This document shows positions 13,705 to 39,407 of a stretch of DNA of 64,000 nucleotides, piece by piece; position 1 is the stretch's first letter; every line of letters begins with the position of its first letter. This stretch comes from Pelagibacteraceae bacterium AG-464-P07 (GTDB lineage: Bacteria; Pseudomonadota; Alphaproteobacteria; Pelagibacterales; Pelagibacteraceae). The translations under genes were made by a program, and so were the position numbers. The notes under the pieces are model-generated. The model worked only from the letters and a program-made list of their open reading frames with translations. It was not told where the DNA came from and did no database searches. The stretch is taken from assembly GCA_003211695.1 (NCBI GenBank), contig QCSA01000006.1, forward strand, positions 1 to 64,000. The letters run 5' to 3'.

Positions 13705-14229
13705 ATGATAAATGTTGAAAATAGAGAAAAAAAAATGCCAGATGAATTTAAAAAATTGGCTAAAGATTTTACAGATAAAGGTTTTATTACAACATCCATG
13801 GACAATCTTGTAACATGGTCGAGAACAGGATCATTGCATTGGATGACTTTTGGTTTGGCATGTTGTGCAATAGAAATGATGCAAACCGCAATGCCCAGAT
13901 ATGATTTGGAGAGATTTGGTGCGGCTCCTAGAGCATCTCCTAGACAATCTGATGTAATGATTGTAGCTGGTACACTTACAAACAAGATGGCTCCAGCACT
14001 CAGAAAAGTTTATGATCAAATGCCAGAACCTAGATATGTGATATCCATGGGTAGCTGCGCAAATGGAGGTGGCTATTATCACTATGCTTACTCAGTAGTC
14101 AGAGGCTGTGATAAAATAATTCCAGTTGATATATATGTTCCAGGTTGTCCACCTACAGCTGAAGCCTTGCTATATGGAATTTTACAACTTCAGAACAAAA
14201 TAAGAAGAGAAGGTTCAATCGAAAGATAA
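13705..14229 (+). CDS. nuoB: NADH-quinone oxidoreductase subunit B
   Basis: This 174-residue subunit carries the N2 [4Fe-4S] cluster that reduces quinone at the foot of the peripheral arm. The cluster ligands are visible as adjacent Cys53-Cys54 ([11 protein letters not shown]), Cys118 ([10 protein letters not shown]) and Cys148 (VPGCPP). The motif [19 protein letters not shown] is the conserved quinone-site segment. Length is normal for Alphaproteobacteria. It lies between nuoA and nuoC with very short spacers. Confidence 0.97.
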
Positions 14230-32893: not shown

Positions 32894-33563
32894 TATTATT
32901 AAAGTAGTTAATCTCTCAAAAAGTTTTTTTTTAAAAAAAAAACTCAATATTTTAAAAAAGATAAATATTGAAATAAAAAAAGGAGAACTAATAGCTTTAC
33001 TAGGTCCTTCGGGATCAGGCAAATCAACATTTCTTCATCTGATTGCGCTACTTGATCAACCATCAAATGGAGAAATTTATTTCGAAGGAAAAAAAACTTC
33101 TCAGATGAACGATGTTGAAAAAGATCAAGTGAGAGGTAAAAAGATTTCTATTGTATATCAACAAAACAATTTGTTGAGTGATTTTACATCTTTAGAAAAT
33201 GTTGCTATAGCAATGATTTCTACTGGGAAAAATATAAAGTATGCAAATAATGAAGCAAAAAAAATTCTAAGAAACGTTGGAGTATCTAAAAGGCTTGATC
33301 ATTTTCCAAGCGACCTTTCAGTGGGAGAACAACAACGCGTAGCAATTGCACGAGCAGTTATAAATGAACCACAACTTATTTTGGCAGATGAACCAACGGG
33401 AAGTTTGGATCAATCTACCTCAAATGAAATATTTAATTTGTTTTTAAAATTTAAGTCTCAAAATCGATCAATAATTTTTGCAACTCATAATAGAGAGCTA
33501 GCCAATAGAGCCGACTACAAGTTACAGATAATTGATGGTAATATTAGACGCTCAGATGAGTAA
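32886..33563 (+). CDS. lolD: Lipoprotein-releasing ABC transporter ATPase LolD
   Basis: The ATPase partner of LolC. It has Walker [10 protein letters not shown], the Q-loop in IVYQQNNLL, the signature [15 protein letters not shown], Walker [13 protein letters not shown] and the H-loop FATHNREL. At 225 residues it is normal for the family. It overlaps lolC and dnaE by 8 nt each, so the three are likely co-translated. Confidence 0.95.
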
Positions 33564-36500
33564 TACAAATAAAAATCAATTTACACATTTAAAGATCCAT
33601 ACTCAGTACTCAATATGTGAAGGAGCAATTAAAATTATTGATTTAAAAGATTTATGTAAAAAAAATAAAATTCAAGCAATAGGGTTAAGTGATACCAAAA
33701 ATTTATGTGGCGCATTGGAGTTTGGAGAAAATATTTCAAAAGTGGGTACACAACCCATTATAGGCAGCCAGATTAATTTTAAATTTAAAGATCAAATAGG
33801 TATTTTACCAATAATTGCTAATAATTTTGAAGGCTATAAAAGTATTATTGGATTATCTTCAAAATCTTACTTAGAAAATAAAACTACAGATGAACCACAT
33901 TGCTTACTCCAAGAATTATTGAACATAAAATCTGGAGTAACAGTCCTCTCAGGTTCTATTGGTGGATTAATTGGAAACTTATTTTCAAAAAATTTACTGA
34001 CGGAGATTGATGATGTCCTCAAATTAATAAAAAATGCATTTGGAGATAAATTTTATTTAGAAGTTCAAAGACATAACGATGTTGGGGAAAAATTATTTGA
34101 AGAATTTATATTAAAAAAATCTAATGACTTAACAATTCCCTTGATAGCAACTCACGAGGTTTTTTATTTAGATAGGGATATGCATGAAGCCCATGATGCA
34201 TTGATCTGTATAGGAGAAAAAACCTATGTAAATGAGAAAAAAAGAAAAAAATATTCAGAAGAACATTATTTAAAAAGTTCTGAACAAATGATCGAAATAT
34301 TTTCTGATTTGCCTGAAGCACTGGAAAACAATTTTAACTTTCCTTTTAAATGTAATTACAAACCCAAATCCTCATTGCCAATACTTCCAAATATAAGGGT
34401 GAGCAAAGATATAGATGTTGATCAAGAATTATTAAATTTAGCAACAAAGGGTTTGAAAGAAAAATTTAATAAATACGTCTTTAAACAGAATTCTGATCAG
34501 GAAAATAAAAACAATCTAGAAAACTATAATAAACGGCTTCAACATGAATTCAATATTATAAAAGAAATGCGTTACTCAGGATATTTTTTGATTGTTTCTG
34601 ATTATATTAAATGGGCAAAAAATAATGATATACCAGTTGGACCTGGTAGAGGATCTGGCGCAGGATCTTTAATAGCGTGGTGTTTACGTATTACAAACAT
34701 TGACCCAATAAAATTTAATTTAATTTTTGAAAGATTTTTAAATCCAGATAGAATTTCAATGCCTGATTTCGATATCGATTTTTGTGAAGAAAAAAGAGAT
34801 TTGGTATTTTCTTATCTTAAAAAAAAATATGGTAATGGAGTTGCTCATATAATTACTTTTGGAAAATTAAAAGCAAGAATGGTAGTTAGAGATGTTGGAA
34901 GAGTTTTGGGCTTTCCCTATGGATTTGTTGATTCTATCAGCAAAATGATTCCTTTTGATCCATCCAGACCTAGGAGTTTGCAAGAAACTATTAATGGCGA
35001 ACCAAGAATTCAAAAAATGATATCTCAAGATAGTCGTGTGAAAAAATTAATGGATTTATCTTTAAAACTGGAGGGATTAAACAGGAATGTTGCGACTCAT
35101 GCAGCTGGAGTTGTAATAGCAGAAAAAAATTTATCAGAAACAGTTCCTCTTTATAAAGATTTTTCTTCTGATTTATTATTACCCGCAACTCAATTTGATA
35201 TGTATTCTGCAGAAAATGCTGGATTAATAAAATTTGACTTACTTGGATTAAAAACTTTGACAGTTATAAGTAAAACTCAGATTCTTTTAAAAGAAAAAAA
35301 TATAGAAATTGATATAAACAATATTAATTTTGAGGATAAAAAAGTTTTTGAATTACTATCGTCTGGTCATACAGTTGGCTTGTTTCAGCTCGAAAGTGCA
35401 GGAATGAGAGAAGCTTTAATGCAAATGAAACCTAATAGATTGGAGGATATTATTGCTCTGGTAGCTTTATATAGACCAGGTCCCATGAGCAATATATCCA
35501 TCTATAATGATTGCAAGCACAAAAAAAAAGAACCTAATTATCTCCATCCAAAGTTAACAGAAATTCTGGAACCAACTTATGGAATTATTATTTATCAAGA
35601 ACAGGTAATGCAAATAGCCCAAATTTTATCGGGTTTTACCGCAGGCGAAGCTGATATTTTAAGAAGAGCAATGGGAAAAAAGAAACGAGCTGAGCTAGAA
35701 AAACAAAAACAAAATTTTATTGAAGGAGCCATAAAGAATGGAATTCAAAGAGATGTAGCAGATTATATTTTCAAAAAAATAGAACCTTTTGCCGAATATG
35801 GTTTTAATAAAAGTCATGCCGCTGCTTACGCAGTCATTGCTTATCAAACAGCTTTTTTAAAAACTCATCACCCCAAAGAATTTTTTGTGGCATCTATGTC
35901 AACGGAATTAGCCAACCAAAATAAATTAAGTGAATTCTATGAGGAATTAAAAAGACTTAATATTGAAATTCAACGTCCATGCATAAATAGTTGCTTTGCA
36001 GAATTTAAATCGACCGACCAAAAATTTTATTATGCATTAGGGGCAATTAAAAGTGTTGGTTTTGAAGCAATTAATCAGATTGTTAAAGAAAGAGAAACTA
36101 ACGGTTCGTTTAAATCATTAGATAATTTTATTAATAGAGTTGATCCAAAAAATATTAATAAACTGCAACTTGAAGGATTAGTGAAAGCAGGCGCATTTGA
36201 CTCTTTAGAAAATAACAGAAAAGAATTTCACGATAATATTTCAAATATTATATTAGCTTCTAAGTCTGTATTTGAAAATAAAATTAATAACCAAATAAAT
36301 TTATTTGATGAAAGTAATCAAACCAATAAAAGTTTGATTAAAAATAATATTAAAAAAGACTGGCCGTTTGAAGAGAGATTATCAAAGGAATTTGAAGCAA
36401 TTGGATTCTTTATTTCGGATCACCCGATTAATGAATACAAAGAAGTTTTTGATATTTATAAAATACAAAACTTTAATTCATTTATAATCTCATCCAAAAA

Positions 36501-36975
36501 TGAAACTATCCTTGCCGCAACAACAATGAAAATTCAAGAAAAAAAAACTAGAGATGGCAACCCTTTTTTAGTTGTTAAATTTAGTGATTTGGGGGGCGTA
36601 TTTGAACTATTTCTTTTTTCAGAAATTTTGGAACAAAGTAGAAATATTCTTAAGGAGGGAAAATCATTTTTAATTACAGTTATAAAAGATTTGAGTAACC
36701 AAAATAATCGATTTAAAAGAACGAGTGTAAGAAAATTAGTAAGTTTAAATGAAATTTTTAAACAATCCATACCTAATATTACATTTGAAATTGAAAAATT
36801 AGAAAATCTTAAGAATTTTTCAAATTTAATTTCTGAAAAAGGTGATACTGATGTTAAAATTGTTGTTAAAAATAATTCAAAAAATCTTATTTTTGAACTT
36901 TCTAAAAAAAGAAAAATAAACCCAGAAATATTAAAATCGTTAAAAAACGAGCCTTATTTGAAAAAAATAAATTGA
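33556..36975 (+). CDS. dnaE: DNA polymerase III alpha subunit
   Basis: The replicative polymerase catalytic subunit, about 1,139 residues from the ATG at 33556; a TTG eight codons earlier is less likely. Domains in order are the N-terminal PHP domain (FTHLKIHTQYSICEGAI), then the polymerase core with GPGRGSGAGSLIAWCLRIT and the catalytic Asp pair in MPDFDIDFCEEKRD. These are followed by HAAGVVIAE, the fingers, GFNKSHAAAYAVIAYQTA, and a C-terminal OB-fold region. It overlaps the lolD stop by 8 nt. Confidence 0.96.
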   Translation: MSNTNKNQFTHLKIHTQYSICEGAIKIIDLKDLCKKNKIQAIGLSDTKNLCGALEFGENISKVGTQPIIGSQINFKFKDQIGILPIIANNFEGYKSIIGLSSKSYLENKTTDEPHCLLQELLNIKSGVTVLSGSIGGLIGNLFSKNLLTEIDDVLKLIKNAFGDKFYLEVQRHNDVGEKLFEEFILKKSNDLTIPLIATHEVFYLDRDMHEAHDALICIGEKTYVNEKKRKKYSEEHYLKSSEQMIEIFSDLPEALENNFNFPFKCNYKPKSSLPILPNIRVSKDIDVDQELLNLATKGLKEKFNKYVFKQNSDQENKNNLENYNKRLQHEFNIIKEMRYSGYFLIVSDYIKWAKNNDIPVGPGRGSGAGSLIAWCLRITNIDPIKFNLIFERFLNPDRISMPDFDIDFCEEKRDLVFSYLKKKYGNGVAHIITFGKLKARMVVRDVGRVLGFPYGFVDSISKMIPFDPSRPRSLQETINGEPRIQKMISQDSRVKKLMDLSLKLEGLNRNVATHAAGVVIAEKNLSETVPLYKDFSSDLLLPATQFDMYSAENAGLIKFDLLGLKTLTVISKTQILLKEKNIEIDINNINFEDKKVFELLSSGHTVGLFQLESAGMREALMQMKPNRLEDIIALVALYRPGPMSNISIYNDCKHKKKEPNYLHPKLTEILEPTYGIIIYQEQVMQIAQILSGFTAGEADILRRAMGKKKRAELEKQKQNFIEGAIKNGIQRDVADYIFKKIEPFAEYGFNKSHAAAYAVIAYQTAFLKTHHPKEFFVASMSTELANQNKLSEFYEELKRLNIEIQRPCINSCFAEFKSTDQKFYYALGAIKSVGFEAINQIVKERETNGSFKSLDNFINRVDPKNINKLQLEGLVKAGAFDSLENNRKEFHDNISNIILASKSVFENKINNQINLFDESNQTNKSLIKNNIKKDWPFEERLSKEFEAIGFFISDHPINEYKEVFDIYKIQNFNSFIISSKNETILAATTMKIQEKKTRDGNPFLVVKFSDLGGVFELFLFSEILEQSRNILKEGKSFLITVIKDLSNQNNRFKRTSVRKLVSLNEIFKQSIPNITFEIEKLENLKNFSNLISEKGDTDVKIVVKNNSKNLIFELSKKRKINPEILKSLKNEPYLKKIN

Positions 36976-37020
36976 TAATAAAAGTTGTAATTTATTCGAT
37001 TAAATTGTAGAACATTCCAA

Positions 37021-37098
37021 AAACGCACACAGTTGTTGGTCGTTTAGACCGCCGGTCCTTAAATGGTAAAACTGTGGTGGAACAACCGGGAAAATATA
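37021..37098 (+). promoter_or_regulatory. Structured rpsB leader, candidate S2 autoregulatory RNA with pseudoknot
   Basis: The region between dnaE and rpsB is richer in G+C and foldable. A 7-bp stem pairs CACAGTT (37028-37034) with AACTGTG (37070-37076). Inside it, GGTC (37038-37041) and GACC (37047-37050) form a hairpin with loop GTTTA. CCGGT (37052-37056) pairs with ACCGG (37085-37089) outside the stem, making a pseudoknot that would cover bases just before the probable start. GTTGTT (37032-37037) can instead pair with AACAAC (37081-37086), giving an alternative fold. Ribosomal protein S2 leaders that control translation are known in several bacterial groups; assignment here rests on position and pairing only. 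Confidence 0.6.
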
Positions 37099-37947
37099 TT
37101 GGATACACCTAATTTAACAATTCAACAATTATTAGAAGCCGGCGTACATCTGGGTCATAAGACATTTAGATGGAATCCAAAAATGAAGAATTATATTTTT
37201 GGTAAAAAAAACTCAATTCACATAATTGATTTAGTCCAAACTCTCGAGTTGACTAAGGAAGCTCTCTCAAAAGTTTCGAGTGTTATTACAAGTGGTGGTA
37301 AAATATTATTTGTTTCAACCAAAAAACAAGCTTCAGAGTCAATTGCTAATTTGGCTAAAGACACATCACAATATTATGTAAATTATAGATGGCTTGGCGG
37401 AATGTTAACTAATTGGAAAACAATCTCAAATTCAATAAAAAAGCTGAAACAAATTAATGAAGCGCTTAAAAAAGACGAAAATATAGGTTTTACAAAAAAA
37501 GAAATTTTAAAGATGGGACTTAAAAGAGATAAACTCGAGAGATCTCTTGGAGGAATTTTAGAAATGAAAAGTGTTCCAGATTTAATATTTGTTATTGATA
37601 CAAATTATGAAAAGTTAGCTATTAAGGAGGCTGCTAAGCTAAATATACCTATAATTGCAATACTTGATACTAATTCTGATCCTACAGACATCGATTATCC
37701 AATACCTGGCAATGATGATGCACGAAGAGCAATTAATTTATACTGTGATATATTAAAACAAACCATTCAAAACGCACAAAAAGAAAATAAGATCTCTAGT
37801 AATAAAAGTGATGAAATTAATACTCCAAGCGAAAAAATAAAAGTTGAAGAAAAAAAAGATAAAAAAGAAGATAAAGTGCGACTGATTGATAAGATAAAAG
37901 AAAAAGTTATTAGCACAATATCAAAAGAACGCAATCTAGAAAAATAA
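37099..37947 (+). CDS. rpsB: 30S ribosomal protein S2
   Basis: A small-subunit ribosomal protein. [52 protein letters not shown] and the [22 protein letters not shown] region are diagnostic. The frame is open from an ATG at 37063, which lies inside the folded leader and would add a 12-residue Trp/Asn-rich head. A TTG at 37099 gives [14 protein letters not shown] after the initiator Met, the usual S2 opening, and is preferred. A Lys/Glu-rich tail follows residue about 240. tsf follows 11 nt downstream. Confidence 0.93.
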
Positions 37948-37958
37948 TAATTTTTTCA

Positions 37959-38822
37959 ATGTCATCTTCTAGTTATTTAGATAAGATTAAAAAACTTAGG
38001 GAACTTACAGGAGTAGGTTTTGGAGATTGCAATACTGCAATCAATGAATGTGGTGGAGATATAGAAAAATCCATAAAATATTTGCGAGTTAAGGGGATTT
38101 CTAAGGCCAGTAAAAAGATGACACGTATTGCAAATGAAGGTCTAATTTGTATTCATGAAGAAAATAATAAATCATCGATAATTGAGATTAATTGTGAAAC
38201 AGATTTTGCTGCAAAAAATTTAGAGTTTTTAAATTTTTCTGAAAATCTTTCTAAATTGTGTTTTGAACTAAAGGGAGATTTAAATAACTTAAAAAAAAAA
38301 AAAATGAAAGATGGGAATAGTGTTGAAGACAATGTGATTAAGCTTATTTCTAAAATTGGAGAAAAAATTACAATTAGAAGATGCAATTTTTTTGATGATA
38401 ATAAATTTATGAATTTTTCATATGTACACGCAGCATTAAAAAAAAATATTGGAAAACTAGGTGTGATAGTTAGCATAGAATCAAAAAAATTTAATGAACA
38501 AATTAAAGATTTTGGACACAAATTGGCAATGCACATAGCAGCATCAAGTCCGTTGGTAATTGAAGTTAGTCAACTTGACAAAAAAATGTTGAAAAATGAA
38601 AATGAGATAATTAGTGAGGAGCTTAGAAATTCAGGTAAAGATAATAATATTGTAGAAAAAATTTTAAAAGGAAAATTAGAAAAATTTAAACAAGAAAATA
38701 CTTTAATTAATCAAATTTGGATTAAGGATCCCAAAAAAAAGGTAAAAGACGTTATAGCTGAATTAGGTAATGAAAATAGTATAATCATTAAAGATTTTGT
38801 TAGATATAAAGTTGGTGAATAA
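37959..38822 (+). CDS. tsf: Elongation factor Ts
   Basis: The nucleotide exchange factor for EF-Tu. The N-terminal UBA-like domain contains IKKLRELTGVGFGDCNTAINECGGDIEKSIKYLRVKG, then the core with CETDFAAKN and LAMHIAASSPL. It has 287 residues. The usual next gene, pyrH (UMP kinase), is absent: frr starts 33 nt after the stop. Confidence 0.95.
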   Translation: MSSSSYLDKIKKLRELTGVGFGDCNTAINECGGDIEKSIKYLRVKGISKASKKMTRIANEGLICIHEENNKSSIIEINCETDFAAKNLEFLNFSENLSKLCFELKGDLNNLKKKKMKDGNSVEDNVIKLISKIGEKITIRRCNFFDDNKFMNFSYVHAALKKNIGKLGVIVSIESKKFNEQIKDFGHKLAMHIAASSPLVIEVSQLDKKMLKNENEIISEELRNSGKDNNIVEKILKGKLEKFKQENTLINQIWIKDPKKKVKDVIAELGNENSIIIKDFVRYKVGE

Positions 38823-38855
38823 ATAAGATTTAGGCTTTAAAATATATATTTTTTT

Positions 38856-39407
38856 ATGTTTGATAAAAATAATTATAAACAAAAAATGAACAAAACCTTT
38901 GAGGCTTTTACAAAGGATTTATCAACTTTAAGAACAGGCAGAGCGAACGCTAGTATGTTGGATACTATCAAAGTTGATGTTTACGGACAAAAAATGCCAA
39001 TCAATCAATTAGCAACTATTACTGCACCTGAACCTAGATCTTTGAATATCCAAGTTTGGGATCAAAACAATGTGGAACTTATTGACTCTTCAATACGAAA
39101 ATCAGAAATGGGTTTAAATCCTCAAATTGATGGTCAATTAATTAGAATTCCGATTCCAAATTTGAATGAGGAGAGAAGGAATGAGTTAAAAAAAATGATT
39201 AAAACTATGGCAGAAAAAAGCAAAGTATCAATTAGAAATATAAGAAGGGAGGCCAACGATATATTAAAAACAATGTTGAAGGAAAAGAAAATTGGGGAAG
39301 ATGAGAACAATAAATACGAAAAAGAAGTTCAAACTATTACAGATCAAGAAATAAAAAAAATTGATGAAAAAGTATCTCAAAAAGAAAAAGAGATAATGAC
39401 AGTATGA
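38856..39407 (+). CDS. frr: Ribosome recycling factor
   Basis: This factor splits post-termination ribosomes together with EF-G. The 183-residue protein shows the standard FEAFTKDLSTLRTGRANASMLD, NQLATITAPEPRSLNIQVWD and PIPNLNEERRNELKKMIKTMAEKSKVSIRNIRREAND. Its TGA overlaps the ATG of uppS (ATGA). It is normally preceded by pyrH, which is missing here. Confidence 0.96.
   Translation: MFDKNNYKQKMNKTFEAFTKDLSTLRTGRANASMLDTIKVDVYGQKMPINQLATITAPEPRSLNIQVWDQNNVELIDSSIRKSEMGLNPQIDGQLIRIPIPNLNEERRNELKKMIKTMAEKSKVSIRNIRREANDILKTMLKEKKIGEDENNKYEKEVQTITDQEIKKIDEKVSQKEKEIMTV

Follow-up and report, generated by a model that had tools for sequence, protein, structure and literature searches.

A SAR11 form of the rpsB motif upstream of rpsB-tsf in a Pelagibacteraceae genome, with a pseudoknot close to the rpsB start

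The element between dnaE and rpsB

In the 64,000-nt stretch of Pelagibacteraceae bacterium AG-464-P07 DNA that was analyzed here (the window), dnaE and rpsB are 123 nt apart, and a GC-rich leader lies in this gap. Its GC content is 51.5%, versus 28.0% for the window, a level reached by 0.5% of windows of 66 nt. The tsf gene is probably cotranscribed with rpsB (Table 1). Neither a terminator-like site nor a promoter above chance was found in positions 36800 to 37200. Among named Pelagibacteraceae/Pelagibacterales records, the best match of the window's rpsB, that to SCGC AAA288-G21, reached 87% in its best segment. Further downstream, tsf is followed after 33 nt (38822-38856) by frr, without pyrH between them; pyrH between tsf and frr is the common order elsewhere, and one partial amino-acid-kinase match is found on another contig.

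Table 1. Coordinates of the leader elements and neighboring genes in the window
Feature	Coordinates	Strand	Basis or remark
dnaE, upstream neighbor of rpsB	33532..36975	+	NF004226 / TIGR00594
P1, 5' strand, with bulged A37027	37024..37034	+	Pairs with 37070-37079; covaries in SAR11 and across Alphaproteobacteria
P2 hairpin, GGUC 37038-37041 with GACC 37047-37050	37038..37050	+	Both-side changes in 4/4 pairs (94 family rows)
Pseudoknot 5' strand CCGGU, junction J2-3	37052..37056	+	Near-invariant in SAR11; compensatory changes in other Alphaproteobacteria
Short P3, CC 37057-37058 with GG 37065-37066, 2 pairs	37057..37066	+	By eye
P1, 3' strand	37070..37079	+	Rfam alignment; covariation
Pseudoknot 3' strand ACCGG	37085..37089	+	Ends 9 nt before TTG 37099
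rpsB start codon TTG	37099..37101	+	Aligned to ATG in 132/135 SAR11 places
rpsB, ribosomal protein S2	37099..37947	+	TIGR01011, 315.7 bits (cutoff 76.3)
tsf, elongation factor Ts	37959..38822	+	TIGR00116; 11-nt gap 3' of rpsB

The leader (37024-37089) is the SAR11 form of the known rpsB motif (Rfam ID RF01815). The element itself is already known, having first been described in 2009 in “Candidatus Pelagibacter ubique” as a long P1 with two short stems, P2 and P3, in which J2-3 forms a pseudoknot with a 3' extension of P1 (PMC2704228). According to the same source, P3 of “Ca. Pelagibacter ubique” also has 2 bp, and the motif is flanked by dnaE (SAR11_0906) and rpsB (SAR11_0907), so that dnaE lies upstream of rpsB there as it does in the window. 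The window shares the dnaE-rpsB location, the long P1, the junction of P2 and a short P3, and the pairing of J2-3 with the 3' extension as a pseudoknot. An earlier note on this DNA, made from the sequence alone, had left open whether its leader is the one predicted in SAR11-type genomes; the RF01815 match, together with the anatomy and place reported in 2009, identifies the two as the same motif. The elements named in that note can be read directly from the sequence, namely, a 7-bp stem (CACAGTT 37028-37034 with AACTGTG 37070-37076), an internal GGTC/GACC hairpin, and a CCGGT/ACCGG pseudoknot with the noted distance to the start. P1 extends beyond this stem, as the Rfam alignment pairs C24, G25, and C26 with G79, U78, and G77 below the bulged A27, giving 10 pairs around the bulge, one of them G-U. 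The pair 25/78 is nonstandard in 41 of the 47 gap-free rows of the wider alphaproteobacterial alignment.

In a permissive search of positions 36950 to 37200, RF01815 aligned over its full length at 37024-37103 with 29.7 bits and an E value of 2.5e-4, which falls short of the 40-bit gathering score; this threshold is one of curation and not a biological feature. At Rfam thresholds, the whole window yielded two tRNAs only. Among relatives, RF01815 matched 23 of 61 genomes at an E value of ≤0.001 and reached its cutoff in none of the 61; a Caulobacter control was also short of it, and the stricter filters of that search returned no match in the window's own genome. Of the 6 matches that a covariance model built from 94 SAR11 rows gave in the genome, the one at the window scored 82.8 bits and the runner-up 17.6 bits; across the class, this model found the element in 53 of 289 genomes (with strict filters and 15 candidates scored in each). 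A second match of this model, at 14130-14188 on the minus strand (21.6 bits; E value, 7e-4), lies inside nuoB and was taken as a chance match; it is absent from the hits of the genome-wide search with the same model.

The rpsB leader of Escherichia coli, t44 RNA (Rfam ID RF00127), likewise precedes rpsB. It has a CACACACG...CGUGGAGG stem and, by eye, carries GGGGU/ACCCC in place of the CCGGU/ACCGG of the window, with about 24 nt between ACCCC and the ATG. RF00127 matches the E. coli leader at 83.5 bits, and RF01815 is absent from the matches listed for it; conversely, RF00127 gave no match up to an E value of 10 in positions 36950 to 37200 of the window. Compared with RF01815 elsewhere, the SAR11 form has a shorter 3' tail than that of other Alphaproteobacteria, mostly lacks a separate Shine-Dalgarno-like word, and, in the genus of the window, precedes a TTG.

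Conservation and covariation of the fold

Conservation was assessed in 134 SAR11 upstream regions that were picked by rpsB, blind to the motif, and that make up 135 places with the window. They come from the window's family, in which 146 genomes have rpsB (139 + 7, the window's included) and from which 98 genomes besides the window were hand-picked across 14 genera (99 places, one genome being used twice), and from all 35 members of the sister family; dropping 8 identical rows left 94 and 33 distinct rows, respectively. CCGG followed by ACCG is found upstream of the rpsB start in all 135 places, and the 3' strand of the pseudoknot ends 3 to 12 nt before that start (median, 8 nt; 135/135).

In the 94 family rows, P1, P2, and the pseudoknot together form 93.1% standard pairs, versus 84.2% in shuffled alignments, and the same pairs slid by 1 to 3 columns drop to 30 to 49%. 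Changes on both sides are seen in 10 of the 19 pairs (shuffled mean, 7.9; 20 of 500 shuffles were as high). The number of further pair types shows no excess in these rows (26 versus 25.2 in shuffles), pair 22/71 is broken in 32 of the 94 rows, and pair 30/42 is broken in 34 of 91. The pseudoknot does not covary inside SAR11, owing to its strong conservation; two of its columns do not pair in 8 rows, which seemingly stand one base out of register, as judged by eye. In the 33 rows of the sister family, P1 covaries, P2 and the pseudoknot are invariant, and P3 consists of 3 pairs (98% paired); in the window's own family, P3 was left uncounted since that part of the alignment is not in register. 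Invariance in the sister family applies to a GATAGC...GCTGTC P2 and to a ACCGGAGAA tail, in which its leaders differ from those of the window's family. The folding energy of the leader is no better than that of shuffled sequences (z = 0.06).

The wider comparison covered 60 other Alphaproteobacteria fetched out of 127 with rpsB (one per family, hand-picked, mostly better scoring) and E. coli. The SAR11-built model aligned 49 of these 61 sources, and 4 of the 49 were dropped because of gaps or a missing inner loop. P1 and P2 are 89.6% paired in the class rows, versus 73.1% in shuffles, with both-side changes in 12 of 14 pairs. For the pseudoknot, the 3' strand was taken from the model columns, blind to the 5' side, and its exact complement was sought in the inner loop. 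Such complements were found in 42 of the 45 usable rows, compared with a permuted mean of 29.5 and a maximum of 38 in 20,000 permutations, and with 4.0 rows when the loops were shuffled. The variant strands were matched as well: ACCAG/CTGGT in 3 of 3 rows, ACTGG/CCAGT in 3 of 4, and ACCGA/TCGGT in 1 of 1. An automatic choice of the 3' strand, which gave 13 complements in 59 rows (permuted mean, 6.3), placed sites that were plainly wrong by inspection and was given up in favor of the model-aligned columns. The stem, the hairpin, and the pseudoknot of the earlier note thus withstand the covariation check, P1 and P2 within SAR11 and the pseudoknot across the class.

Proposed control by S2 and its alternatives

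In E. coli, S2, aided by S1, represses translation of rpsB-tsf via the 5' untranslated region, by a mechanism that is described as unclear (PMC10931766). By homology, the SAR11 rpsB motif very probably forms a folded leader at the 5' end of the rpsB-tsf mRNA and serves feedback by S2 on translation, and we infer that SAR11 S2 would be its ligand. Three parts would make up the putative S2 site: P1 including the bulged A, the short junction of P2 and P3, and the pseudoknot that ties J2-3 to the 3' tail. S2 in excess over 30S assembly sites, perhaps together with S1, would bind there and stabilize the leader fold; the stabilized fold just upstream of the start would keep 30S subunits off, and the output of rpsB, and by coupling that of tsf, would drop. 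Control is predicted to be translational because no terminator was found in positions 36800 to 37200, and the block to be direct because the fold ends 3 to 12 nt from the start. The SAR11 leader is therefore expected to do the job of the E. coli leader with a more direct block. The ribosome binding site of E. coli is reported to lie outside the S2 operator (PMC10931766), so that such a direct block may not apply everywhere.

The alternative that survives best, which is nevertheless unlikely, is a constitutive structure whose role is to protect or place the mRNA or to bring in S1 or the 30S subunit, without any sensing of S2. It would fit the statement that S1 favors pseudoknots (PMC10931766) and draws on the fact that S2 regulation in SAR11 is assigned by homology with E. 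coli; however, the homologous E. coli leader is regulated by S2, and the element stands before rpsB throughout the class.

The earlier note had proposed an S2-sensing switch between two competing folds. Its first part, that rpsB has a pseudoknotted leader with a probable S2-sensing role, is retained on the grounds of E. coli homology, whereas the switching between two folds is not. The pairing invoked there, GUUGUU (37032-37037) with AACAAC (37081-37086), is a weaker competitor in the window than another hairpin, GACC (37047-37050) with GGUC (37054-37057), which would consume P2 and the 5' strand of the pseudoknot. This hairpin is present in the computed minimum-energy fold, and 71.1% of its cells pair in the family. 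Yet none of its pairs shows changes on both sides, its outer pair fails in 70 of the 92 rows with letters, the overlap follows from the GGU word that is common to P2 and the pseudoknot, and the 3' strand of P2 differs from GACC in the sister family, all of which makes a switch based on this hairpin quite improbable.

A two-state switch between GUUGUU/AACAAC and P1 plus the pseudoknot is far less credible still: the two strands are complementary and the shared bases make the folds mutually exclusive, but the pairing is unconserved, with 54.5% of cells paired versus 55.5% in shuffles and no measure above the shuffled mean, so that the covariation check counts against it, and it is energetically weak, being worth −2.7 kcal/mol alone (P1, −10.2; P1 and P2, −15.0), with the best fold that contains it at −13.9 versus −21.1 kcal/mol for the free fold, i.e., 7 kcal/mol worse.

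The reading of the region as the beginning of the rpsB coding sequence, from an ATG at 37063 that sits within P3, can be dismissed with similar assurance: the window does have an open frame from 37063, and TTG, as the other possible start, is the weaker codon, but the upstream frame stays open for 12 codons in only 61 of the 135 SAR11 places and contains an in-frame ATG in 21, the distance from the pseudoknot to the start varies by single bases among these places, and a sister (L028) has this ATG outside the rpsB frame, so that the protein code from 37063 envisaged in the earlier note does not hold.

Distance from the pseudoknot to the rpsB start

In other Alphaproteobacteria, the distance from the pseudoknot to the start was measured in the 56 of 60 regions that had an in-frame ATG together with a recognizable pseudoknot (one containing wobble pairs in 3 cases). 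The distance has a median of 17 nt, although some of these starts, with linkers of 31, 35, and 79 nt, may be misassigned, and it is 12 nt or less in 4 of the 56 (L255, L292, L293, and L303). A GGAG, AGGA, GAGG, or AAGG word is found between the pseudoknot and the start in 50 of the 56 class regions versus 6 of the 135 SAR11 places, the rows being related; the six SAR11 places all belong to one genus. When the count also takes in the end of the pseudoknot strand, such a word appears in 48 of the 135 SAR11 places (again related rows). The most extreme spacing is seen in one case (L076, G140) in which ACCGG ends 3 nt before the rpsB ATG. Use of TTG as the start of rpsB was found only in the window and in the other two sampled genomes of its genus among the 135 places, and this replacement of ATG perhaps lowers S2 initiation.

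An initiating 30S subunit has a footprint that would cover any stable pseudoknot this near the start. Because the pseudoknot ends a median of 8 nt from the start, the SAR11 fold probably lies inside the footprint of the ribosome. E. coli and most Alphaproteobacteria have a separate Shine-Dalgarno sequence downstream of the pseudoknot, whereas in SAR11 the two would share bases. We tentatively suggest, while leaning against it on balance, that the SAR11 leader has been shortened in such a way that the 3' strand of the pseudoknot replaces the Shine-Dalgarno sequence, making the pseudoknot and 30S binding directly exclusive. The anti-Shine-Dalgarno CCTCC was found at a candidate 16S end in 5 of 13 genomes, these five being relatives. 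Shine-Dalgarno-like words occur upstream of 8 of 59 genes in the window, versus 13.6% of 177 inner control stretches (the starts being crude), and there is no clear G peak upstream of the window genes; this lack of enrichment argues against the pseudoknot strand as a true Shine-Dalgarno sequence in this genome.

The four non-SAR11 Alphaproteobacteria with short distances have the pseudoknot 7 to 10 nt from the start, and three of their four genomes are 0.8 to 1.4 Mb in size. A like shortening possibly arose independently in a few other small-genome lineages. Among the papers listed in literature searches, none described the shortened SAR11 tail in its title or in the opening lines of its abstract; the founding paper may show it in its figures or supplementary alignment.

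The SAR11 copies score under the Rfam threshold and are therefore missed by standard annotation; according to a 2019 survey, the motif is also unannotated in SAR11 strain HIMB5 (PMC6429828). One unusual feature of the leader is the closeness of the fold to the rpsB start. If pseudoknot and ribosome loading site are one in the short tail, SAR11 would offer a simple natural version of S2 repression, which could be tested as plain competition.
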